Positions 1 to 61,760 of a stretch of 64,000 nucleotides of DNA are shown here, piece after piece. Both the position numbers and the translations under genes were made by a program. Where the stretch lies: assembly GCA_947500435.1 (NCBI GenBank), contig CANMRV010000002.1, positions 186,001 through 250,000 on the forward strand, read 5' to 3'. The notes under the pieces are model-generated. The model was not told where the DNA came from. It did not search any database and was given only the letters and a program-made list of their open reading frames with translations. This DNA comes from an uncultured Flavobacteriaceae bacterium. GTDB taxonomy: Bacteria > Bacteroidota > Bacteroidia > Flavobacteriales > Flavobacteriaceae. Position 1 is the stretch's first letter, and each line of letters opens with the position of its first letter.

Positions 1-1466
1 CCATAAGTGCCAATCCAAATGTTCTGCTCACTATCCGTGCGAAGGGCAAATACACTATAGCTATTGCCCTGAATTGGTTTTATGTTGCCTTCTTTAATTC
101 TTTTGGGGTCTGAAATGTCAAGTTCAAAAAGAGCTGGTGTTCCTTCAGCACCAATGAACAAAGTCTTTTTGCCATTTTGTATAGTTTCGGTTATTGCAAA
201 TGCTTTTGAAATAGTATCAAAGGTTTGAAAGTTATCATATTTTCCCGATTCACTTTTCTTAAGACTCATATTAAGACCACCGCCTTCGGTACCGACCCAT
301 AAAGTGCCATTGCTATCTTCGAAGAGCGATCTGATTTTATCATAACTCAGACTATTGGGTTTCAATGTTTTTCTAATATGGTCAAATCGTTTTCGTTCTG
401 GGTCAAACTTATTTACGCCACCACCATTCGTACCAACCCAAATAATTCCAGTTTTATCTATTGCAAGGGACTTTATAATGTTCTTGCTTATACTATTGCT
501 TTCCAGAGGATTATAGGTGAATGTCTTTGCATATTGTGGTAGAGCCATATGCGAGGCGTTGTTGAAGAGGTGGAGACCAGAATTGGTGCCACACCAAATA
601 TTCTGATTTTTGTCAACGATAATATCATTAAAATAGCCATCGAAAATTTTAACGAACTTATCGTTTTTGCCATTTTTTTCACGTGTATGGAGGCCGTAAA
701 TAGTTCCAACAATCAAACGCCCTTCTTGGTCTTCCGCAATGCTAGTTACCGTAGTATCATTTAATCCGAGTTCATCATTGATACATTTAAAATAAATATC
801 CCCATTTTGATCTCGCGACAATTTAAATAAACCACCGACTCCGCCAACAAGCAGTTGGTTTTTACTATTTTCAAATACGGAATAGATTCGACGTCCGTCC
901 CAGTTAGGTTCAAAAGGCTCTGGTTCAAAATCAAAAGAATGGAATACCAAACTGTCCAAGGGTTTACTAAGGTCTAACATGTTAATACCCCTGTTCGTAC
1001 CTATCCACAAACGATCATTACGATCTTTGAAAATGGTTGATATATGATTATCGCTTAAACTTGATTTGTTCTTGTTTTCATGTTTGAAAGCTCTAAATTT
1101 TTCTGTGGCTCTATCAAAATAGTTTAGTCCGCTACCTGTTGTTGCTATCCACAGATTTCCTTTTTTATCTCCTACAACATCAAAGATGAGGTTGCTGTTG
1201 ATGGTTCCTGGCTTGTTTGGACTCGGGTTGTAAACTGTAAATTCATAACCGTCATATTTGTTGAGGCCATCGTGCGTGGCAAACCACATAAAACCCTGAT
1301 TATCTTGGTATATTGAATTGATATCACTCTGGGAAAGCCCATCCTCAGTTGTCAAATGGTCAAAGAAGATATTATCTTGTCCTAGACCAGCGCCAGGAAT
1401 GCCAATGAATACTAACAGTAGAATTGCTAGTTTATGAATTAAGTTATGTCCGACTATCTCTTTCAT
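1..1466 (-). CDS. Hybrid two-component system sensor, periplasmic N-terminal part (partial)
   Basis: The frame is open from an ATG at 1466 to the window edge (488 codons), so only the N-terminal part is seen. A hydrophobic segment around residues 10-32 ending AGLGQ looks like a signal peptide. About ten repeats of the two-component-regulator propeller type follow, each with a core such as LWIGTNRGIN, IWCGTNSGL, IWVGTNGGGVN or LWVGTEGGGLN. This layout is that of Bacteroidota hybrid two-component sensors, in which a periplasmic propeller binds an oligosaccharide and a cytoplasmic kinase, receiver and AraC-type region activates a polysaccharide locus. The kinase and DNA-binding parts lie outside the window and are inferred. 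Its place next to the GH2, sulfatase and galK genes suggests it senses a galactan fragment. Confidence 0.88.
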   Translation of the reverse strand, partial: MKEIVGHNLIHKLAILLLVFIGIPGAGLGQDNIFFDHLTTEDGLSQSDINSIYQDNQGFMWFATHDGLNKYDGYEFTVYNPSPNKPGTINSNLIFDVVGDKKGNLWIATTGSGLNYFDRATEKFRAFKHENKNKSSLSDNHISTIFKDRNDRLWIGTNRGINMLDLSKPLDSLVFHSFDFEPEPFEPNWDGRRIYSVFENSKNQLLVGGVGGLFKLSRDQNGDIYFKCINDELGLNDTTVTSIAEDQEGRLIVGTIYGLHTREKNGKNDKFVKIFDGYFNDIIVDKNQNIWCGTNSGLHLFNNASHMALPQYAKTFTYNPLESNSISKNIIKSLAIDKTGIIWVGTNGGGVNKFDPERKRFDHIRKTLKPNSLSYDKIRSLFEDSNGTLWVGTEGGGLNMSLKKSESGKYDNFQTFDTISKAFAITETIQNGKKTLFIGAEGTPALFELDISDPKRIKEGNIKPIQGNSYSVFALRTDSEQNIWIGTY

Positions 1467-1549
1467 TCGTATTTTCTCTGAGGGAATTAAATATACCAAA
1501 TTATAATCATCGTTCTTGTTTTCCGAACATTCAAAGGATTTCAAGAATT

Positions 1550-4375
1550 TTATTTTTTGACTTCTGTGATTTTAAATCCATTTAAAACCACGGGGACTGT
1601 ATCATCATCAGAACTTATGGTTATTAAAATGGGAATGTTACCATTAGATTGAATTTCATATTCTTTAGAAGCTGGTTGTGAGTTGCCCAAGCGATTACCT
1701 GAAGTAGGTTTAATTGATGCCATAGTATCCCCTGAACTATCTGTAATATGTATTGTATAATTTGGCGCGTTCTTTTGCTCTTCCATGAGATGATGATAAG
1801 AAGTTATGGTATAGCTTCCTTCCGAAAGATTGGATAGTACTAGGGTGATCTCTTTATCACTTTTAATTCCATCAGCACCAACATAAGCTAAATCAGCGGA
1901 CAAACCCCATCCGTTTTGCCATTCCAATTCCGAACCACTTTCGATTCCAATACTCAGTTTGGGAAAGTCCTTTAGCTTTGGTTTAAGTGTAGGATTCCAT
2001 TCCGTCCATCCAAACTGGACCAAACGCTCTTTGTCTCCTCCAAGGTCAATTTTAGCCTCCTTTAGCTCATAAAATGGGTGTATCTCTGCCTCGCTGCGAT
2101 TTGTATTATAGGGAATAGAATTTATCGTAGCTCTGGAGGCTATCAAACCATCTGCGGAAGCTTCAACGGTTATTTTGCCAGCTGTTGCTATTGATTTAAT
2201 GAATGCTGTGGCGACTCCATGGTATGATTTAAAGGGATTAGCACCCAAAGAAGCATCACCAATTATTTTACTACCTCCTTTTATGGTAAAGGTTACGGTT
2301 GTGGAATCTTTTGTTACATGATTTCCTTCTTTGTCAAGAATGTATGCTTTCACCACTTTGATGTCAGAAGCGTTGGCATTAAAGGGTCTGTTATCACCTT
2401 CAATAAGAACTTTCAAGCGGTATGGGTTTTTGGCTTTTCCCAAGGAATGGGCGGCAATTGTTTTTCCTTCGGAAATGCCTTTAGCGGTTAAATTGCCCTC
2501 TTTCCAGTCATAATTAAATGTAAATGATGGATGTTCAATGTACATACGGTCATTATTCTGGTTAGGAAATTGCCGTGCAATCACTTTTCCATCCTTACTA
2601 AGTTCTATTTCTTCGGAATTACTAAAGACCAGTACTTGTCCATCTTCTGATGCGCGTTCGTCAGCAATATGTACTATCGGCCTTTCAAGCATTTCTGATT
2701 GATACCAATAATACACAGGATTTGGTTCACGATACATCGAAAAAATTCTACGTGGATGTAATCCTCGATTTGGTTTAAATGCCTGGTAATCATGAGCTGT
2801 CCAAACGGCTACACCGATATGATTAGCAGATGCTCTCGCTTTGGAAACCTCAAACTGATTTCTTGATGCATCCGCCGAGCTACCGTGTTCGCAGAGGAAG
2901 GTGAATTCATTGGGATTGATATCCATATTCTGATAATCCATGGGGGTGTATATATCCGTTACTCCCGAGTTTCTAGGTCCACTCCATGGACTTCCATTGG
3001 ATGCCGTCATTCGCGTCGGGTCCTCTTGTTTGCAGGCGTAGTGCAATTGGGGTACAGGTCCTCGATGGTTCAGAGAACCTCCCCACATTAATATTGATGG
3101 GTGATTTCTGTGATTGCGAATCATTCTTCTAGTAGCCTCCTCAAGATTTGAAAACCATGCGCTATCACCGATGCCAATCCAACTTGGTGGTTCTTCGTAT
3201 ACCAAAATACCCAATTCGTCACAGGCTTCTATAAAGGAATTATCATGTGGATAATGTGCCAGTCGCACTACATTAAAACCAGCTTGTTTGAACTGCCAGG
3301 CATCTTTCCAATGCAGGGAATTCGGAACAGCATCTCCAATAAATGGATAGGCCTGATGTCTGTTAGCTCCGATCAATTCTACTTTCTTCCCGTTGAGTAA
3401 GAATCCTTTGTCTCTGACATACTCAAATTTTCGAATCCCTAACTTATTTTCAACTACGTCAACAGGAATTCCATCTACATATACCGTCGTGTTTACGCGG
3501 TACAAATAGGGACTTTCAATCGACCATAATCGTAAATCTTCTGAAATACCACCGATTTGTGAAAAGGTGTTATCGGAATTTGGAAGAATCGATTTATTGG
3601 ATTCCAACTTGCTGACTACTAATCCATTGTTATCAATTATCCGTGTTGTTAGTTTACATTCTTTTATAGAAGATGTTTCATTGCGAATTGTAGTTCTGAC
3701 ATCGATGGTGGCATTTTGAGGGGTAACAGAAGGGGTTGTAATGAATACACCTGCATATTGGTCTTCCCAGGGAAAAGTTACATGAACTTCATTTGTGGTC
3801 ACTAGATAAACATCACGGTACAATCCACCGAACTTGATATAATCATATTGATTTCCATCTGGTGGGACGGAGGCATTCAGACGATTGTCAGCACTTAAAA
3901 GAAGTTCGTTTTCTCTTCCATCTTTGAAAATGAAATCGGTGATGTCAAAATGGAAAGGAGTGTATCCGCCAATGGAATGTTCTCCGACATGTTTTCCATT
4001 GACCCAAAGATTGGTGACCTGATGGACACCCTCAAACTCTATAAATACTTTTTGGTTTGCGCTGACTTTGGTGGAAATCAGTTTTTTATACCACCCGACA
4101 TTACGGTGAAATTTGGTTTGATAGGTGGAATCAAGTCCGCTAACATCTGAAGGAACTAATTCCAACATATGCGGCACTGAAACACGCTCCCATTTGGCAC
4201 GATCCGTATGCAGTTCTAGCTGAGTACCCTGATTTTTCTCCAAGTAGAAATCCCATTCTTGATTGATTTCAAGCTTAACCCTTGTTTTTGCTCCAAAATC
4301 CTGAGAAGATAACGTTTTGGAGGCAAAAAAGAGTAGGGTTACGATAACGGCGAATTTTGTGTAAGAAGTTTTCAA
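1550..4375 (-). CDS. Secreted GH2-family glycosidase (beta-galactosidase-like), 941 aa
   Basis: A signal peptide covers about residues 1-24. A GH2 sugar-binding jelly roll follows (about 40-200, with the VTNLWVNGKHVG and GGLYRDVYL motifs), then an Ig-like domain (about 210-315) and a TIM barrel (about 320-600). A long beta-rich C-terminal region contains a segment near 620-780 like the accessory domains of large GH2 beta-galactosidases. The nucleophile is probably E496 in the FLCEHG motif. The acid/base site, normally WSxGNE, reads SLNHRG at 434-439, so the expected glutamate is absent (His437 is closest). The start codon is TTG; no ATG lies in frame before residue 70 and a TAA sits eight codons upstream. 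It is divergent from the oxidoreductase-sulfatase operon. Galactoside specificity is inferred from galK; beta-glucuronidase is an alternative. Confidence 0.85.
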   Translation of the reverse strand: MKTSYTKFAVIVTLLFFASKTLSSQDFGAKTRVKLEINQEWDFYLEKNQGTQLELHTDRAKWERVSVPHMLELVPSDVSGLDSTYQTKFHRNVGWYKKLISTKVSANQKVFIEFEGVHQVTNLWVNGKHVGEHSIGGYTPFHFDITDFIFKDGRENELLLSADNRLNASVPPDGNQYDYIKFGGLYRDVYLVTTNEVHVTFPWEDQYAGVFITTPSVTPQNATIDVRTTIRNETSSIKECKLTTRIIDNNGLVVSKLESNKSILPNSDNTFSQIGGISEDLRLWSIESPYLYRVNTTVYVDGIPVDVVENKLGIRKFEYVRDKGFLLNGKKVELIGANRHQAYPFIGDAVPNSLHWKDAWQFKQAGFNVVRLAHYPHDNSFIEACDELGILVYEEPPSWIGIGDSAWFSNLEEATRRMIRNHRNHPSILMWGGSLNHRGPVPQLHYACKQEDPTRMTASNGSPWSGPRNSGVTDIYTPMDYQNMDINPNEFTFLCEHGSSADASRNQFEVSKARASANHIGVAVWTAHDYQAFKPNRGLHPRRIFSMYREPNPVYYWYQSEMLERPIVHIADERASEDGQVLVFSNSEEIELSKDGKVIARQFPNQNNDRMYIEHPSFTFNYDWKEGNLTAKGISEGKTIAAHSLGKAKNPYRLKVLIEGDNRPFNANASDIKVVKAYILDKEGNHVTKDSTTVTFTIKGGSKIIGDASLGANPFKSYHGVATAFIKSIATAGKITVEASADGLIASRATINSIPYNTNRSEAEIHPFYELKEAKIDLGGDKERLVQFGWTEWNPTLKPKLKDFPKLSIGIESGSELEWQNGWGLSADLAYVGADGIKSDKEITLVLSNLSEGSYTITSYHHLMEEQKNAPNYTIHITDSSGDTMASIKPTSGNRLGNSQPASKEYEIQSNGNIPILITISSDDDTVPVVLNGFKITEVKK

Positions 4376-4630
4376 AAGATAAGGAGCAGGTTTTGGTTAT
4401 TACTTTAATAAACTTAATTCAAAGTTGAGTTGTTTATGAATGTAAATGGTTTTGAAAGCAGAACAAATGGTTATGACTTCGAGATTGTGGGGATTATTAA
4501 GTAATTTATAGACTCGGTTGTAATTAAACGAAATTTCACAAAAGCGGTATTTACTAAATGATTTTTTCTTTTTAACTTACAAACAACTTCATAATCAGAT
4601 TAATAACCAATACCATATAAATTCACTACG

Positions 4631-5968
4631 ATGAAAAATGATAAAAAAATGAGGGAGTCAAAGAAATCAAGAAGAGACTTCGTGAAAAAATCCGCTTTGT
4701 TTACTGGGGGTGCGATGCTTTTGCCTAACATGCAAATGAGCGGCATGGTAAACGTTTTCAATGATAAAAAATTGAAAATTGCCTTGGTAGGGTGTGGAGG
4801 CCGTGGAACTGGCGCAGCAGTTCAAGCACTAAATGCAGATGATAATGTGGAGTTAGTTGCAATGGCAGACGCCTTTGAAGACAGACTTCAAGGAAGTTTA
4901 GCTAACATTTCGAAAGAAATGGGCGAGACAAAAAAGATAAATGTTCCTGAAAAAAATCGATTTGTTGGTTTTGATGGAGCTCAAAAAGCAATGGATTTGG
5001 CTGATGTGGTAATATTGGCAACACCACCAGGTTTTAGGCCACAGCATTTCGAGTATGCCATAAATAATGGCAAACATGTTTTCATGGAAAAACCTGTGGC
5101 GACTGATGTTCCCGGGGTTCGAAAGGTTTTGGCGGCTGCAAAAAAAGCCAAAGAGAATAAATTAAATGTAGTTGTTGGTTTACAGCGTCACTATCAAGAT
5201 AACTACTTGGCCGCTCTGGATCAGTTGAAACAAGATAAAATTGGAAAGATAGTTTCCGGTCAAGTGTATTGGAATAGTGCAGGGGTATGGGTGCGTGAGC
5301 GACAGGCTGGTCAGACCGAACTGGAATATCAAATGCGAAACTGGTATTATTTCAATTGGTTGTGCGGAGACCATATTTTAGAACAGCATATTCATAATAT
5401 AGATGTAGCAAACTGGTTTATTGGGGAATATCCTATTTCGGCTCAAGGAATGGGCGGGCGACAGGTACGAACAGGTAAAGACCATGGAGAAATATTTGAT
5501 CACCACTTTGTGGAATTCACGTATCCAAGTGGTGCTGTAATTGCCAGTCAATGTAGACACCAACCCGACACAATGCGACGAGTTTCAGAATTTTTCCAAG
5601 GAACCAAAGGAACGGTTTCTACGGCTGGAGACAATGCCACATTGAAAGGTTGGGACGGTAGTACCATTTTTGAACATAGAGGAAAAGATGACCCCAATCC
5701 TTATGAAGTGGAGCACGTCAAACTTTTTGAATCCATTCGAAATGGGGGTGTCATTGCCAATGGGGAAAACGGGGCCAAAAGTACCATGACTGCTATTTTA
5801 GGAAGAATGGCCACCTATTCCGGAAAAGTCGTGAAATGGGATGAGGCAATGCAATCGAATTTAGCATTGGTACCTGATGACTTAACTTGGGATTCTCCTG
5901 CGCCAGTAAATCCAAATGCAGAGGGTTGGTACGATATTCCAACTCCAGGAAAGAGTGTTGTAATATAG
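4631..5968 (+). CDS. Tat-exported Gfo/Idh/MocA family oxidoreductase, 445 aa
   Basis: The N-terminus carries a twin-arginine motif (SRRDFVKK, residues 13-20) followed by a hydrophobic stretch, so the enzyme is probably folded with its nicotinamide cofactor and exported to the periplasm. The Rossmann motif GCGGRG is at 54-59, the family EKP motif at 153-155, and an HIHNID segment at 253-258 lies where the catalytic His/Asp residues of the family occur. Exported members act on sugars, some as NAD-dependent glycosidases (for example GH109). The HGLGP-type motif of GH109 was not seen, so that family is not assigned. It is the first gene of a + strand operon with the sulfatase, FGE homologue and galK, 18 bases before the sulfatase. 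The substrate is probably a galactose-containing saccharide, by inference. Confidence 0.85.
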   Translation: MKNDKKMRESKKSRRDFVKKSALFTGGAMLLPNMQMSGMVNVFNDKKLKIALVGCGGRGTGAAVQALNADDNVELVAMADAFEDRLQGSLANISKEMGETKKINVPEKNRFVGFDGAQKAMDLADVVILATPPGFRPQHFEYAINNGKHVFMEKPVATDVPGVRKVLAAAKKAKENKLNVVVGLQRHYQDNYLAALDQLKQDKIGKIVSGQVYWNSAGVWVRERQAGQTELEYQMRNWYYFNWLCGDHILEQHIHNIDVANWFIGEYPISAQGMGGRQVRTGKDHGEIFDHHFVEFTYPSGAVIASQCRHQPDTMRRVSEFFQGTKGTVSTAGDNATLKGWDGSTIFEHRGKDDPNPYEVEHVKLFESIRNGGVIANGENGAKSTMTAILGRMATYSGKVVKWDEAMQSNLALVPDDLTWDSPAPVNPNAEGWYDIPTPGKSVVI

Positions 5969-5986: not shown

Positions 5987-7564
5987 ATGTTTTTAAAAAA
6001 ATCAATGTTGTCCCTGCTTTTAGCAGGGACATTCTTTTTGTCATGTAAAGAACAGGCAAAAGAGACCGCCAGCGAAAATCAATCCGTTAAACCGAATATC
6101 ATCTACATACTTGCTGATGATTTGGGCTATGCGGAAGTCGGTGCTTATGGCCAGGAAAAGATAGAAACACCAAATATTGATGCCTTGGCAAAAGGAGGCA
6201 TGCTTTTCACCCAACATTATAGCAGTGCCCCGGTTTGCGCGCCTGCGAGGAATATGTTTTTAACGGGAAAACATGCTGGTCACGCCTATATTCGAAGCAA
6301 TAGTGAGTGGAAAGAACGAGGTGATGTTTGGGACCATTATGCCATGGCAAAAGATTCCACATTAGAAGGACAAGGGCCGATGCCGGCTAATACTATTACA
6401 ATGGGGCATAAGCTAAAAGAAGTCGGCTACAAAACTGGAATAGTTGGTAAATGGGGATTGGGAGCTCCACATACAAAATCTGTCCCGAACGATATGGGAT
6501 TTGATTTTTTCTATGGATACAACTGTCAGCGACAAGCACACACCTACAATCCATTGTTTTTGTATAAGAATAGAAACCGAGTTCATTTTGCCAACGATAC
6601 GGTGCCCCCTGGTACCAAACTGGCTGAGGGAGCCGATCCAAATGACGAAAAGAGCTACGCTCAATTTGACCAGCAATACTATAGTCCTGAACTGATGTTT
6701 AAAGAATTAACGGATTTTGTGGATCGTAGCAAAGAACAACCTTTCTTTTTGTATTGGGCAAGCCCGATACCACACGTGGCCTTGCAAGCTCCTAAAAAAT
6801 GGGTGGATTATTATATCGAGAAATTCGGAGAAGAGGAGCCCTACTTAGGGGATAAGGGCTATTTTCCTCATAAAAACCCCAGAGCCGCATATGCCGCAAT
6901 GGTTTCCTATTTGGATGAGAATATTGGGAAATTGGTTCAGCAGCTGAAAGACGAAGGCATTTACGACAATACCTTAATCGTATTTACTTCGGATAACGGA
7001 CCGAGCTATGCAGGGGGCGCTGACCCTGAATTTTTCGATAGTGCTAAACCCTTCGCTGGAGAATACGGAAGAGGTAAAGGCTATTTGTATGAAGGAGGAA
7101 TTCGAGTACCTATGATTGCTTCATGGCCCAGTAAGATAAAAGCTGGTACAAAGAGCGATCATATTTCTGCGCATTATGATATGCTTGCCACTTTTGGCGA
7201 TGTTACTGGATACGAAAATGCAGAAGCCTCAGATGGTATTAGTATGCTTCAGGCCATGCTTTCGGATGAAAACCAAGAGGTGCATGATTTCATGTACTGG
7301 GAATTTCCAAGCTATGGAGGCCAAGTTGCAATTCGAATGGGCGATTGGAAGGTAGTACGCCAAAACTTGAAAAATGAAAAGGAACCTACTTTGGAACTCT
7401 ATAATTTAAAGGATGACCCGACGGAAACAAAAAATGTTGCAGACTTACACCCCGAGGTATTACAAAAAGCTGCTGAAATATTTAAGGCAGAGCGGGAGAT
7501 TCCTGAATTGGAGAATTTCGAAATTCCTATCCTTCAGAAAGGATTACTTGCCGAAAAAAAGTAA
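5987..7564 (+). CDS. Lipoprotein sulfatase (S1 family, Cys type), 525 aa
   Basis: A lipoprotein signal ends in LSC (Cys20), so the enzyme is probably anchored in the envelope. The metal-binding ADDLGY motif is at 43-48, and the sulfatase signature CAPAR starts at Cys84 and continues to a TG; this Cys would be oxidised to formylglycine. A SDNGPSY motif and a C-terminal subdomain complete an arylsulfatase fold of ordinary length. Such enzymes hydrolyse sulfate esters from algal polysaccharides or oligosaccharides. The gene sits between the exported oxidoreductase and an FGE homologue, in a locus ending in galactokinase, which points to sulfated galactose units. The S1 subfamily cannot be set by eye. 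Confidence 0.93.
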   Translation: MFLKKSMLSLLLAGTFFLSCKEQAKETASENQSVKPNIIYILADDLGYAEVGAYGQEKIETPNIDALAKGGMLFTQHYSSAPVCAPARNMFLTGKHAGHAYIRSNSEWKERGDVWDHYAMAKDSTLEGQGPMPANTITMGHKLKEVGYKTGIVGKWGLGAPHTKSVPNDMGFDFFYGYNCQRQAHTYNPLFLYKNRNRVHFANDTVPPGTKLAEGADPNDEKSYAQFDQQYYSPELMFKELTDFVDRSKEQPFFLYWASPIPHVALQAPKKWVDYYIEKFGEEEPYLGDKGYFPHKNPRAAYAAMVSYLDENIGKLVQQLKDEGIYDNTLIVFTSDNGPSYAGGADPEFFDSAKPFAGEYGRGKGYLYEGGIRVPMIASWPSKIKAGTKSDHISAHYDMLATFGDVTGYENAEASDGISMLQAMLSDENQEVHDFMYWEFPSYGGQVAIRMGDWKVVRQNLKNEKEPTLELYNLKDDPTETKNVADLHPEVLQKAAEIFKAEREIPELENFEIPILQKGLLAEKK

Positions 7565-7598: not shown

Positions 7599-8753
7599 AT
7601 GAGTCACCTGCTTAAATCATTAGCCTGTCTTTTATTTTTTAGTGTACTAATTCAGTGTAAAGAGGATAAAAAGACGAACATCACAACTGGGACTTCTGAA
7701 GAAAAAGAAGTTGTTGTAGACCGTAATATTGAGAAGGTACTAGATATGTTGGTGGAAAAACCAGAAGGGGTAAGCATCCCAGAAGGAATGGTATGGATAC
7801 CCGGAGGTACCATTTTGCAGGGCGCTGTACCCCAAGATGAGATGGCGATGGCGCATGAAAAGCCCGCTCATAAGGTTGCTGTTGATGGATTCTTTATGGA
7901 TATTACAGAAGTCACAAATGCCCAGTTCAAGAAGTTCGTAGCTGCTACAGGATATAAAACTGTAGCGGAAAAAGCAATTGACTGGGAGGAAATGAAAAAA
8001 CAGCTTCCCGCTGGAACGCCGAAACCTCATGATAGCATTATGCAGCCTGGATCACTCACTTTTAAAAAGACCAAAAGTCCTGTGCCCAATCTCTATGATT
8101 TTTCGCAGTGGTGGGAATGGAAAATCGGAGCCAATTGGAAGCAACCCAACGGTCCGGGAAGTTCTATCAAAGGAAAAGACAATCACCCCGTAGTTCATAT
8201 TTCTTATGAAGATGCAGTCGCTTACTGTAAGTGGTCAGAAAGAAGACTTCCAACCGAAGCAGAGTGGGAGCGTGCTGCTCGTGGCAATCAAGAGAATGCC
8301 ATTTTTTCCTGGGGCGATGATATTTCATTACTCCCAAAAATGGCGAATTCTTGGGAAGGTGAATTTCCTGTTAACAATACAAAAGTTGATGGTTTTGAAC
8401 GCCGTGCTGGGGTGAAATCCTATCCTCCGAATGATTTCGGTTTATATGATATGGCCGGTAACGTTTGGGAATGGACTAACGACTGGTACAATACGGGGTA
8501 TTATCAGGAGATGTATCAAAATGGCCAGATGGTTTTGAACCCTCAAGGTGCCAACACTCCCTATAACGAAAGAGATCGTTATGCCCGTGAAAGAATTATT
8601 AAAGGAGGTTCGTTCTTATGCAGTGAATCCTATTGTGCCAGTTATCGCATATCTGCACGTATGGCCAACAGTCTTGATTCAGCTCAAGAACATCTAGGGT
8701 TTCGAACGGTAGCCACGGTAGCAATGATTAAAAATTCCGGAGAAAAGAAATAG
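7599..8753 (+). CDS. Lipoprotein formylglycine-generating enzyme (SUMF1/FGE) homologue, 384 aa
   Basis: A lipobox with Cys20 (LIQC) shows export and lipidation. The FGE-sulfatase domain runs from about residue 60 to the end: MVWIPGGT, then EVTNAQFKKFV, RLPTEAEWERAARG, MAGNVWEW and LGFR. The pair Cys341 and Cys346 (CSESYC) matches the spacing of the catalytic, copper-binding cysteines of aerobic FGE (CHRSYC in the human enzyme, from memory). Many Bacteroidota SUMF1-like proteins lack this pair, so catalytic competence is plausible here. It starts 34 bases after the sulfatase stop and both are predicted lipoproteins, so the sulfatase is the natural partner. Other SUMF1-fold roles (GldJ-like or EgtB-like) are less likely given the cysteines and context. 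Confidence 0.85.
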   Translation: MSHLLKSLACLLFFSVLIQCKEDKKTNITTGTSEEKEVVVDRNIEKVLDMLVEKPEGVSIPEGMVWIPGGTILQGAVPQDEMAMAHEKPAHKVAVDGFFMDITEVTNAQFKKFVAATGYKTVAEKAIDWEEMKKQLPAGTPKPHDSIMQPGSLTFKKTKSPVPNLYDFSQWWEWKIGANWKQPNGPGSSIKGKDNHPVVHISYEDAVAYCKWSERRLPTEAEWERAARGNQENAIFSWGDDISLLPKMANSWEGEFPVNNTKVDGFERRAGVKSYPPNDFGLYDMAGNVWEWTNDWYNTGYYQEMYQNGQMVLNPQGANTPYNERDRYARERIIKGGSFLCSESYCASYRISARMANSLDSAQEHLGFRTVATVAMIKNSGEKK

Positions 8754-8772: not shown

Positions 8773-9903
8773 ATGCAGTTTTTAGAAAATTTCACACCTG
8801 AACTTACGGTAGCTTCCCCCGGTAGAATCAATTTTATCGGTGAGCATACCGATTATAATATGGGGTATGTGCTTCCCACAGCAATCGGCAATAAGATTAC
8901 GTTCAAACTCCAAAAGAATGGTACTGACAACTTTTGCAACGTATATTCGGTTGGATATAAGGGATTTTCATTGGACCTCAGGAACATTTCAATCAGTGAT
9001 ACGGAATGGGAAAACTACGTTCTAGGAGTTCTAAATGAAATTTCAAAATTGACCGATAGCGTAAAAGGCTTTGATTGCACTATTGAAAGCAATCTTCCTT
9101 TAGGTTCCGGGCTGAGTTCCTCAGCTGCCATGGAATGCGGTTTGGCTTATGGTTTAAATGAATTGTTTGGTTTGGGACTTTCAAAAATAGCAATAGTTGA
9201 ACTTTCCCAACGCGCAGAACATTCCTATGTCGGAACCCAATGCGGAATCATGGATCAATTTGCCTCTGTTATGAGCAAGGAAGGTAATGTGATTCTACTG
9301 GATTGTCAATCCCTTGAATATCAGTATATACCTATTGATATTCATCCGTATAAAATCATTATGTTGAACACCAAGGTTGAGCATACTTTAGCTTCTAGTG
9401 AATACAATACACGCAAGCTAGAATGTGAAGAGGGTGTCTCCATAATGAAAAAGAGTAATCCGGATATAAAATCCCTAAGAGATGCAACTAGGTATATGTT
9501 GGAGAACTCAAAAAACGAAATGACCCAAACAGTTTACAATCGATGTTCTTTCATTATTGATGAGAACAAAAGGGTGCTCAAAATGGTGGACGCCTTTCAG
9601 AGGAAAGACTTGGAGGCTGTGGGTAATCTTTTATATGAAGCACATCAGGGAATTAGCAAACTCTACGAGGTAAGTTGCCCTGAATCTGATTTTTTGGTTG
9701 ATTTTGCTAAGACAAATGCAAAGGTTTTAGGTGCTCGCCAAACGGGGGGAGGTTTTGGTGGTTGTACGCTTAATATCGTTCATGAAAGTGCAGTCGAAGA
9801 CTTTAAGAGGGAAGCTGCAGATGCTTATAAAAAAACTTTTAATATTGACTTAGAAGCCTTTGAAGTAAGACCAAGTGGGGGTACAAAGATTGTTAATTTT
9901 TAA
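8773..9903 (+). CDS. galK: Galactokinase
   Basis: A GHMP kinase of 376 residues that phosphorylates galactose at C1 in the cytoplasm, the first step of the Leloir pathway. The galactokinase signature GRINFIGEHTDYN is at 17-29, the ATP loop LGSGLSSSAAM at 110-120, and the catalytic Asp is probably D161 in CGIMDQFASV. The C-terminal GGGFGG motif is present. It starts 19 bases after the FGE homologue and ends the + strand operon. Its 3' end overlaps the 3' end of the convergent response-regulator gene by 4 bases. galT and galE are not in the window. Its place here is the main reason to read the locus as galactoside catabolism. Confidence 0.96.
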   Translation: MQFLENFTPELTVASPGRINFIGEHTDYNMGYVLPTAIGNKITFKLQKNGTDNFCNVYSVGYKGFSLDLRNISISDTEWENYVLGVLNEISKLTDSVKGFDCTIESNLPLGSGLSSSAAMECGLAYGLNELFGLGLSKIAIVELSQRAEHSYVGTQCGIMDQFASVMSKEGNVILLDCQSLEYQYIPIDIHPYKIIMLNTKVEHTLASSEYNTRKLECEEGVSIMKKSNPDIKSLRDATRYMLENSKNEMTQTVYNRCSFIIDENKRVLKMVDAFQRKDLEAVGNLLYEAHQGISKLYEVSCPESDFLVDFAKTNAKVLGARQTGGGFGGCTLNIVHESAVEDFKREAADAYKKTFNIDLEAFEVRPSGGTKIVNF

Positions 9904-57903: not shown

Positions 57904-59016
57904 ATGCAAAGATTACTTCCTTTATTTGGGCTGCTCTTGGTTTTTGCCTGCAGCCCTGAAGACAACATAAATGGCATTGAAACTATCGCGAATACTGATA
58001 TAATGGAGGAAACCGAATCTTCAAATACTACCGAAGGTCCTGTTTTTGATGGCCGAAATAAAGGAACCATACTGACCTATTTTGAATCGCTTATTGCAAA
58101 TAAGCAACTCGTTGTAGGGCAACAATGTGGTGATGCTCCCGATTCTACTTGGTGGTACTACAATACCTATGTGGACCAATTGGCCGATGAAACCGGCAGA
58201 CATGTTGGTTTGATTGGAGCTGATTTTGGCTGGTTTAACGGTGATAATTACCCGGTTCAAACCTTAATCGACCATTGGCACGAAGGAGGTTTGGTTACGG
58301 TGAGTTGGCATGCGGATAATCCCTTTGTGGATAAGGTAGATGTATATTGGGATACCGTAAATGATAGCGACCAAATCAATTTAAAGTCCTTGTTTAAAGG
58401 GCAACCGCAAACAAAAGCATGGACCAGCTATCGCACAGAACTCGATAAAGTTGCCGGTGCCTTGCAAAAACTCAGGGATGCAGGAGTAACCGTAATATGG
58501 AGACCTTTTCATGAGATGAATGGGGATTTCTTTTGGTGGGGAACGAATGCGAACGGAAATCAACAGACCAATGTGGAAGATTACAAAGCGCTTTGGACTG
58601 ATTTGTATAATACCTTAAGATGGGACTATGGGCTAGACAATCTAATTTGGACCTACTCTGTGGTGCCGAGCGAAACTTGGTATGCCGCGGTAACGGCATA
58701 CTACCCTGGAGATGATTATGTAGACTTGGTAGGAATGGATTACTATGGAAATCAACCCGATTTTCCTCATTATGAGGAATTAAAAGCGTTGGGCAAACCA
58801 CTTGTAATGTCAGAATCTGGCCCACGAGAAGCAGGATATGGCAATTGGGATATGATGGAATTTGCAAACTTGCTCAAAGGCAAGGCTGCTTATTTTCTGC
58901 AGTGGCATAGCTGGAGGGGAGCCAAAGTCGCTATCAAAGACAACAAGAATTTCATTGAAATGATGGATAGTGATTTTGTGATTACCCGCGATGAACTGCT
59001 ACCTACTTCTTTTTAG
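57904..59016 (+). CDS. GH26 beta-mannanase, lipoprotein, 370 aa
   Basis: A lipobox (VFAC, Cys16) indicates a surface or outer membrane lipoprotein. The GH26 catalytic pair is visible: acid/base Glu204 in WRPFHEMNGDFFWW and nucleophile Glu304 in VMSESGPRE, with VSWHADNPF as a subsite segment. GH26 enzymes cleave internal beta-1,4-mannosidic links in mannan and glucomannan. The mature linker (about 17-45) is Thr/Glu-rich. It is the first + strand gene of the mannan-linked region; the membrane glycosidase and Tat isomerase lie nearby on the other strand. No SusCD pair. Confidence 0.94.
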   Translation: MQRLLPLFGLLLVFACSPEDNINGIETIANTDIMEETESSNTTEGPVFDGRNKGTILTYFESLIANKQLVVGQQCGDAPDSTWWYYNTYVDQLADETGRHVGLIGADFGWFNGDNYPVQTLIDHWHEGGLVTVSWHADNPFVDKVDVYWDTVNDSDQINLKSLFKGQPQTKAWTSYRTELDKVAGALQKLRDAGVTVIWRPFHEMNGDFFWWGTNANGNQQTNVEDYKALWTDLYNTLRWDYGLDNLIWTYSVVPSETWYAAVTAYYPGDDYVDLVGMDYYGNQPDFPHYEELKALGKPLVMSESGPREAGYGNWDMMEFANLLKGKAAYFLQWHSWRGAKVAIKDNKNFIEMMDSDFVITRDELLPTSF

Positions 59017-60389: not shown

Positions 60390-61760
60390 TTAACGTGGAG
60401 TGTTTGAATTTTTTCCAAACCATTTTGCCATAGTATTTTCAGCAGGCTTGAAACGGGGTGAAAAATTGATATCAGTTTTGGCACTTTCTTCTGTTGTCCG
60501 AGTATTCCATTCCCAAAAATAAATTCCAGCAAGCCAAGGTTTATCCCAAGTCTGTTTGAACAAAGCTTCATAGGCCAATTGCTGTGTTCTGTCCGATTTC
60601 TTTTTGGTAATACCACTTAAAAACGGACTCCATTCCCACGGTTTTATAGTGGCATCTGCGTCGCTTTTGTAACCTGCTTCGGTAAATAGAATGGGCTTTT
60701 CGTGTTTTTCATGGAAAGCTTCTAAAGCGGTTAGATGTTTCGCCCAACCTTTTTCAATGGTTTCTAAATCAGGGTTTTCAACAGTTGTAAGGGGGAAATA
60801 AGCCTGTATTCCGATATAATCTAGCTTGTGCCAGAATGTAATATGTTCATACTCATCATACCAATTGGCGGCATAGGTAAGCTCTCCCTTATAAATTTGC
60901 CGTATTTCGTCAATTAGACTTTTCCATTTTTCTGGTTGTTTTTTGATTGAGGTCTTTAGTTCGGTTCCAACACAGAACAATTCGGTATTTGTTTCGGCCG
61001 CAATTCTGGCATAGCGCAACATATTAGTGCGATAGGATTCAAACCATGCATCCCATTCTTTAGCAGAATCTAAGGTGATATTGGAACGCCATCCGTCGTG
61101 CATCCATAAATGAGGTTTTAGTTGTACTCGAATTCCCTTTTCATGCAAATCGCGAATAGCCCTGATATGACTGGAATCTCTTCTTGTATAAATTTTTGGA
61201 TTCTCTGGAATATCAACCAGTTTGGTCGTTTCATCTTTTTGAAACAAAAATGGAATGACCGCTACCCATTCTACATTTGTGCGAACAAGGTCTTCAATAG
61301 CCTCAGTATTATCCTCAGACCAGCCAAAAACACTCATGCCGCGGTGTTTTTTATCTACTTCATGCAGATTATTCACTATTCCGTTTTTGTTCATGACGGA
61401 AGTATCCCATTGATAGGTGAAGCCTTCATGGGCATTGGCAAACACAAGGGTTTTGTAACCCAGGAAAATCAATAGGAGGGGAAGAGCAAACCGATAGGAA
61501 ATTTGTCTGAAGAATACTTTTCTTCCTTTGGAACGGTAGATTTTTATAAAATATCTAATACTTAAGAAAAGCGCATAGCATAATAGAAATATGATGTGAA
61601 AACCCATTTGGAAATTTCTATTGTCAGCGATTTCGAAAAAGAACTTTGCGCTATCAGAAAGACTCCGGTCTCCACGACTTAAAAGTATGGTAAACACAAC
61701 AAAGCTTAGCATCCAAAGAATGACATAGACACCTATGAAATGTTTGATTTTAGTCTTCAT
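60390..61760 (-). CDS. Membrane-anchored GH113-like glycosidase (beta-mannanase family), 456 aa
   Basis: Three N-terminal membrane helices (about residues 8-28, 53-73, 90-108) precede a TIM barrel. The catalytic residues match clan GH-A with GH113: acid/base Glu267 in FCVGTELKT and nucleophile Glu361 in ILFTEAGYK. QLKPHLWMHDGWR and GIQAYFPL also fit GH113 mannanases. The helices are unusual: most secreted mannanases have a signal peptide. The barrel is probably outside the inner membrane, so acting in the periplasm on short mannan fragments. 5' of the Tat isomerase gene. Confidence 0.87.
   Translation of the reverse strand: MKTKIKHFIGVYVILWMLSFVVFTILLSRGDRSLSDSAKFFFEIADNRNFQMGFHIIFLLCYALFLSIRYFIKIYRSKGRKVFFRQISYRFALPLLLIFLGYKTLVFANAHEGFTYQWDTSVMNKNGIVNNLHEVDKKHRGMSVFGWSEDNTEAIEDLVRTNVEWVAVIPFLFQKDETTKLVDIPENPKIYTRRDSSHIRAIRDLHEKGIRVQLKPHLWMHDGWRSNITLDSAKEWDAWFESYRTNMLRYARIAAETNTELFCVGTELKTSIKKQPEKWKSLIDEIRQIYKGELTYAANWYDEYEHITFWHKLDYIGIQAYFPLTTVENPDLETIEKGWAKHLTALEAFHEKHEKPILFTEAGYKSDADATIKPWEWSPFLSGITKKKSDRTQQLAYEALFKQTWDKPWLAGIYFWEWNTRTTEESAKTDINFSPRFKPAENTMAKWFGKNSNTPR

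Follow-up and report, generated by a model that had tools for sequence, protein, structure and literature searches.

Family 2 glycoside hydrolases with histidine fixed at the acid/base position form a distinct and widespread clade

Introduction

Glutamate serves as proton donor in textbook accounts of glycoside hydrolase family 2 (GH2) and clan GH-A. A GH2-family gene in an uncultured Flavobacteriaceae bacterium (GenBank assembly GCA_947500435.1) raises the question of how, and on which substrate, such a protein might act when histidine stands in that place. The gene lies in the window, the stretch of 64,000 nucleotides of contig CANMRV010000002.1 that was analyzed here. A preliminary description of this DNA reported an otherwise ordinary GH2 protein with a plausible nucleophile (E496) and His437 in place of the acid/base glutamate, and it proposed that an exported oxidoreductase encoded across the divergent promoter could assist cleavage by redox chemistry.

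Results

The window encodes an exported protein of GH2 architecture

Rereading of the sequence agreed with the preliminary description in the open reading frame, the residue numbering, and the motifs, with SLNHRG at residues 434 to 439 and E496 within LCEHG (Table 1). A signal peptide is followed by the GH2 N-terminal, immunoglobulin-like, TIM barrel, DUF4982, and C5 domains and by an extra C-terminal beta domain. Pfam searches returned Glyco_hydro_2_N, Glyco_hydro_2, Glyco_hydro_2_C, DUF4982, and Glyco_hydro2_C5; the domains that define GH2 membership (PF02837, PF00703, and PF02836) were above cutoff and in order. The AlphaFold model had a mean pLDDT of 90.4 and a pTM of 0.90. The solved structures closest to it in fold all belonged to GH2; these beta-galactosidases and beta-glucuronidases included BuGH2A and a lambda-carrageenan GH2. 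Many PDB and NCBIfam sequence matches ended just short of the acid/base residue, as is expected if this region is unusual. By its domains, its fold, and its position in the tree described below, the protein belongs to the GH2 sequence family, an assignment that makes no claim to a normal GH2 catalytic pair.

Table 1. Coordinates of the GH2 gene, its catalytic codons, and adjacent features in the window
Feature	Position	Strand	Basis
Hybrid two-component regulator, N-terminal (sensor) part; rest left of window (L034:15196-18999)	3..1544	-	
GH2-family protein, 941 aa, exported	1550..4375	-	ORF reading, Pfam, predicted model, fold search
E496 codon, catalytic nucleophile (LacZ E537)	2888..2890	-	Sequence reading, alignment
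N436-H437-R438 codons (aac-cat-cga), acid/base position	3062..3070	-	Sequence reading, alignment
E394-E395 codons, end of barrel strand 3; candidate His partners	3191..3196	-	Conservation, model strands
Putative start codon TTG	4375	-	ORF reading
Intergenic region between divergent GH2 and oxidoreductase genes	4376..4630	.	
Gfo/Idh/MocA oxidoreductase, Tat-type signal (SRRDFVK)	4631..5968	+	Domain search
S1-type sulfatase, CAPAR motif	5987..7564	+	Domain search
FGE/SUMF1-domain protein, lipoprotein-type signal, adjoins sulfatase	7599..8753	+	Domain search
Galactokinase, use of released D-galactose	8773..9903	+	TIGR00131 above cutoff

Histidine replaces the acid/base glutamate while the rest of the catalytic core is kept

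In an alignment with Escherichia coli LacZ and UidA, H437 fell on LacZ E461 and N436 on N460. The same alignment paired E496 with E537, Y481 with Y503, W525 with W568, H340 with H357, and H374 with H391. One extra residue separates W431 from N436 relative to LacZ, as is also the case in some Glu-bearing GH2 proteins (WEASLNES). Conservation was compared between 81 members of the clade described below, which are the window protein and 80 others with identities as low as about 38%, and 53 other GH2s, which included LacZ, UidA, paralogues from the same genome, and the flavobacterial GH2s of greatest similarity. All 53 proteins outside the clade had Glu in column 437, and N436, H437, R438, E496, and E395 were each present in 81/81 members. 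A histidine in every member rules out a sequencing or frame error, or chance, as the source of H437. Another conserved glutamate at the acid/base place, named beforehand as the outcome that would tell against the substitution, could not be found in the alignment with the 53 nonclade GH2s, LacZ and UidA among them.

E496 occupies the position of the GH2 nucleophile glutamate, where barrel strand 7 ends. Where barrel strand 4 ends, GH2 enzymes have Glu after Asn, but the clade has H437 throughout. R371, H374, N436, E496, and W525 were invariant in the clade and nearly invariant outside it, and H340 behaved similarly. Residues peculiar to the clade were D348, E394, W407, N421, H437, R438, G439, M479, W557, and E561. 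D348 was present in 81/81 members and missing from the 53 other GH2s, and E394, found in 80/81, was nearly clade specific as Glu; E395 was also common in Glu-type GH2s. In the predicted model, barrel strand 3 ends at residues 391 to 394 and strand 4 at 428 to 432, which puts E394 and E395 on a strand adjacent to the one bearing H437 and makes a His-carboxylate pair plausible. D348 falls in the loop that follows barrel strand 1.

The histidine-bearing proteins form one clade across six phyla

Near full-length matches above 700 bits were found in 19 of 299 Flavobacteriaceae genomes, that of the window included, and the next gene scored about 310 bits. With each species represented by a single genome, a scan yielded 80 loci of this group, here named HR-GH2. 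In six genomes outside the Flavobacteriaceae, clade matches scored at least 1156 bits and the next GH2 about 350, a gap that leaves no continuum between HR-GH2 and other GH2s. Members came from Bacteroidota, Planctomycetota, Verrucomicrobiota, Kiritimatiellota, Calditrichota, and Pseudomonadota. In a tree built without columns 437 to 439, all of them fell on one side of a single branch (SH-aLRT 100), nested among Glu-type GH2s; the nearest sister of HR-GH2 is not settled by this quick tree, some of whose branches outside the clade are long. HR-GH2 is thus a distinct and widespread GH2 clade with histidine fixed at the acid/base position, and its monophyly and invariance are consistent with a single Glu-to-His event followed by strict conservation.

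By sequence, no PDB structure belongs to HR-GH2, and a literature search returned no description of a His-bearing GH2 clade or of a GH2 with His at the acid/base place. Clade members occur mostly in gene sets that degrade seaweed sugars, mainly in marine bacteria. Pelagicoccus mobilis (genome G307) has 19 GH2 matches at E <= 1e-60, including a pair of HR-GH2 members on different contigs (L096 and L123).

The gene neighborhood fits a sulfated galactan containing L-galactose

The window GH2 gene sits between a regulator and two sulfatases on one side and the divergent oxidoreductase, sulfatase, FGE-like lipoprotein, and galactokinase genes on the other. Hybrid two-component regulators of this sort are typical of polysaccharide utilization loci. 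The FGE/SUMF1 lipoprotein is exported and related either to a sulfatase-maturing enzyme or to GldK. At L197:550-9471 (G000:C2:162550-171471), about 24 kb left of the GH2 gene, a GH29 gene is followed by a catabolic operon encoding a Zn-dehydrogenase, an altronate/galactarate-dehydratase-type protein (GD_AH), a tagaturonate reductase, a fuconolactonase-type lactonase, a fucose-dehydrogenase-type SDR, and FucP. As judged from its genes, the operon looks like a complete catabolic route for L-galactose (or L-fucose). Elsewhere in the window, the products of 57904-59016 (+) and 60390-61760 (-), which lie near each other, resemble by eye GH26 (IWRPFHEMNG) and GH113 beta-mannanases.

The known intermediates of L-galactose catabolism are L-galactonate, D-tagaturonate, and D-altronate (PMC12632266). 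Porphyran loci use GH29 as an alpha-L-galactosidase and GH2 as a beta-D-galactosidase (PMC12316285). The operon matches the former route, and together with the latter roles the gene set agrees with a polymer built from D-galactose and L-galactose(-6-sulfate). Fucoidan, first suggested by the GH29 and fucose-type genes, was set aside, as the tagaturonate/altronate genes and the porphyranase link given below favor L-galactose; fucose-containing galactans may still be a substrate. Of the porphyran/agaran locus set, the window's genome has the sulfatases, the GH29, the L-sugar operon, and the galactokinase, while the GH86 porphyranase domain (PF18206) is absent from it; five GH16 genes, of a specificity unassigned by sequence, lie elsewhere in this genome.

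The surroundings of 71 clade loci of at least 18 kb were compared with those of 20 loci around Flavobacteriaceae Glu-type GH2s. GH29 genes were found near 31/71 clade loci and 1/20 controls, GH16 near 21/71 and 0/20, and GH86 near 18/71 and 0/20. At least one of these three families was present at 48/71 clade loci compared with 1/20 controls (P = 3e-7), although the P values are optimistic because the loci are not mutually independent. Sulfatases showed no significant excess (42/71 clade loci versus 9/20 control GH2 loci), and L-sugar catabolism genes stood near few clade loci only. Beside the clade members of Flammeovirga, the adjoining GH86 has porphyranase domains. Among the 299 Flavobacteriaceae genomes, the PF18206 porphyranase was present in 13/19 carriers of HR-GH2 compared with 4/280 noncarriers (P = 3e-15).

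The clade has a member in Zobellia

Genome G301, which we take to be that of Zobellia galactanivorans DsijT, has one HR-GH2 at 4,191,770-4,194,682, which by gene count would be approximately ZGAL_3614. The surrounding region (G301:C1:4166960-4227400; L190-L193) holds four GH2 genes, three of the Glu type and this one, along with several GH29, sulfatase, GH16, and GH28 genes. A literature search for ZGAL_3612-3618 found nothing. ZGAL_3633, suspected from its locus to be a clade member, was rejected, as the gene at that place has WSIGNEI. Two GH2s that act on algal carrageenan oligosaccharides, identified here by synteny (ZGAL_3633) and by position (ZGAL_4655), have Glu as usual; thus, such substrates do not require His.

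Ficko-Blean et al. (2017) cloned ten Z. galactanivorans GH2 constructs and reported that all were active on pNP-beta-galactoside (PMC5698469). The HR-GH2 orthologue may already be among the ten. The same motif with normal activity, which the preliminary description had held to speak against an unusual enzyme, may thus already exist; if the orthologue is one of the ten, its activity has been shown with its unusual active site unremarked.

Discussion

A histidine as the probable acid/base

The reading we favor, with confidence a little better than even, is that the window protein is an exported, retaining exo-beta-galactosidase (or close beta-glycosidase) of GH2 that acts on sulfated red-algal galactans containing L-galactose, of the porphyran/agaran type, with H437 as its acid/base. 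In the double displacement of retaining GH2 enzymes, E496 would be the nucleophile at C1 of the beta-galactosyl residue, and H437 would first, as imidazolium, donate a proton to the leaving sugar and then, as imidazole, activate water. Since the nucleophile, its surroundings, and the -1 subsite are kept, the economical reading is an ordinary double displacement in which H437 both donates and accepts a proton. At the mouth of the barrel, E395, E394, or D348 would probably provide a carboxylate that holds and tunes H437, as in the His/Asp dyads of NagZ and GH117, and R438 would probably read a sulfate near the scissile bond. Replacement of Glu by His and Arg would spare an anionic substrate from repulsion. 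Sulfated-galactan pathways also use Glu-type GH2s after desulfation (PMC12549532); because such enzymes (PMC12549532; ZGAL_3633) serve these pathways as well, sulfate reading by R438 is put forward only as a proposal. A broader suggestion, that His (in a His-Glu/Asp dyad) and Arg were selected throughout the clade to accept a sulfate beside the scissile beta-galactosyl bond and so bypass a sulfatase step, is tentative, and we regard it as rather doubtful.

HR-GH2 shares its domain order, fold, and nucleophile Glu with the GH2 beta-galactosidases (LacZ; BuGH2A and BuGH2C; ZGAL_3633; the lambda-carrageenan GH2 9BEY), as well as the Asn before the acid/base and the histidines and tryptophan of the -1 subsite. 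However, those enzymes have Glu as the acid/base, whereas HR-GH2 has His with an invariant Arg and an extra C-terminal beta domain. CsxA, a GH2 exo-glucosaminidase, is said to use Asp as its acid/base, so a GH2 with a residue other than Glu in this role is not unprecedented. In NagZ, which belongs to another family, GH3, the histidine sits on a flexible loop, whereas that of HR-GH2 is at the end of barrel strand 4, and the GH117 fold differs from that of GH2. Histidine with a carboxylate partner serves as the acid/base in the retaining GH3 NagZ and in the inverting GH117 and GH156 (PMC11574756). NagZ (Asp-His dyad), a retaining enzyme in which His stands where a carboxylic acid/base is usual, would share both traits with HR-GH2, and the GH117 3,6-anhydro-L-galactosidases (His302/Asp320) would resemble it in having a His general acid and in being exo-enzymes, in their case of agar degradation (PMC11574756). 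The GH117 enzymes are inverting, act on an alpha-linkage, and share no homology with HR-GH2. By sequence, HR-GH2 has a His at the proton-donor position and invariant or nearly invariant candidate partners in E395, E394, and D348. The porphyran locus of Phocaeicola plebeius (GH86/GH16, S1_11, GH29, and GH2C), where GH2 is the beta-D-galactosidase step, shares the enzyme set around the GH2, a likeness in gene content (PMC12316285).

Alternative explanations

Redox-assisted cleavage via a 3-keto intermediate, with the neighboring oxidoreductase as partner, drew on the Tat signal of that enzyme and on a DUF1080 3-keto-disaccharide hydrolase gene and two more Gfo/Idh/MocA genes to the left of the GH2. 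However, the oxidoreductase adjoins the GH2 only in the window and in two close relatives (L054 and L055), whereas H437 is universal and is kept without oxidoreductase or DUF1080 neighbors; the histidine therefore cannot depend on that neighbor. Gfo/Idh/MocA genes were not enriched (8/71 clade loci versus 2/20 control GH2 loci). DUF1080 occurred near 1/71 clade loci and, being present in 199/299 Flavobacteriaceae genomes anyway, was uninformative as a clue to HR-GH2 function. A partner dehydrogenase kept alongside the hydrolase, as NAD-dependent (3-keto) cleavage systems would have it, is thus seen only in these two relatives. The oxidoreductase is a distant match, far below cutoff, to a glycoside 3-dehydrogenase model. 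Keto-elimination would not need the retained nucleophile E496. We find this chemistry hardly credible. The preliminary description stands in its histidine and its nucleophile but not in its redox proposal. The DUF1080 gene (PF06439; L034:3570-4391 [+], about 171.6-172.4 kb in G000:C2) lies left of the window near two Gfo/Idh/MocA oxidoreductases, a DUF1501 gene, and a PSD1/PSCyt cytochrome protein gene. To judge from these genes, this region may well be a 3-keto glycoside route of the bacterium's own, and we prefer to regard the GH2 and the 3-keto genes as two independent systems that share a region.

Alternatively, H437 and R438 might only bind an anion (sulfate) in an active retaining enzyme whose proton comes from D348, E394, or E395, or whose good leaving group needs none, as in myrosinase. 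The clade-wide D348, absent elsewhere, the nearly clade-specific E394, and the anion site suggested by R438 beside H437 speak for this, but H437 falls exactly on the acid/base position, and neither E395, common in Glu-type GH2s, nor D348, in a loop, is an obvious substitute; we consider it unlikely. That the clade consists of retaining phosphorylases or transglycosidases, in which His would allow phosphate, as an anionic acceptor, to attack the glycosyl-enzyme, appears quite improbable. It would share its Glu-to-His logic with GH3, for which Macdonald 2015, as cited in PMC11574756, made the phosphorylase argument for the His of NagZ-type enzymes, and the invariant Arg next to the His also speaks for it. 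On the other hand, phosphorolysis gains little in the probable periplasmic location given by the signal peptide, and the clade loci show no conspicuously conserved sugar-1-phosphate genes. The GH3 phosphorylase claim itself was reportedly reexamined in later work, by Ducatti in 2016. Loss of the canonical acid/base Glu could also mark an inactive relative whose sole role is binding, which is very improbable; the nucleophile and the -1 subsite residues are invariant in 81/81 members from six phyla, and with the rest of that subsite intact, decay of HR-GH2 is unlikely.

Significance

HR-GH2 is, as far as the literature search goes, a previously unremarked branch of GH2. Its sequences suggest that it most likely still cuts sugars by the usual two-step route, with His doing the job of Glu. 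A fixed His in a monophyletic clade of six phyla whose catalytic core is intact is a natural experiment on which residues can serve as an acid/base. The ordinary beta-galactosidase annotation of these genes hides a different active site, and HR-GH2 is a concrete candidate for the exo step of porphyran/agaran breakdown.
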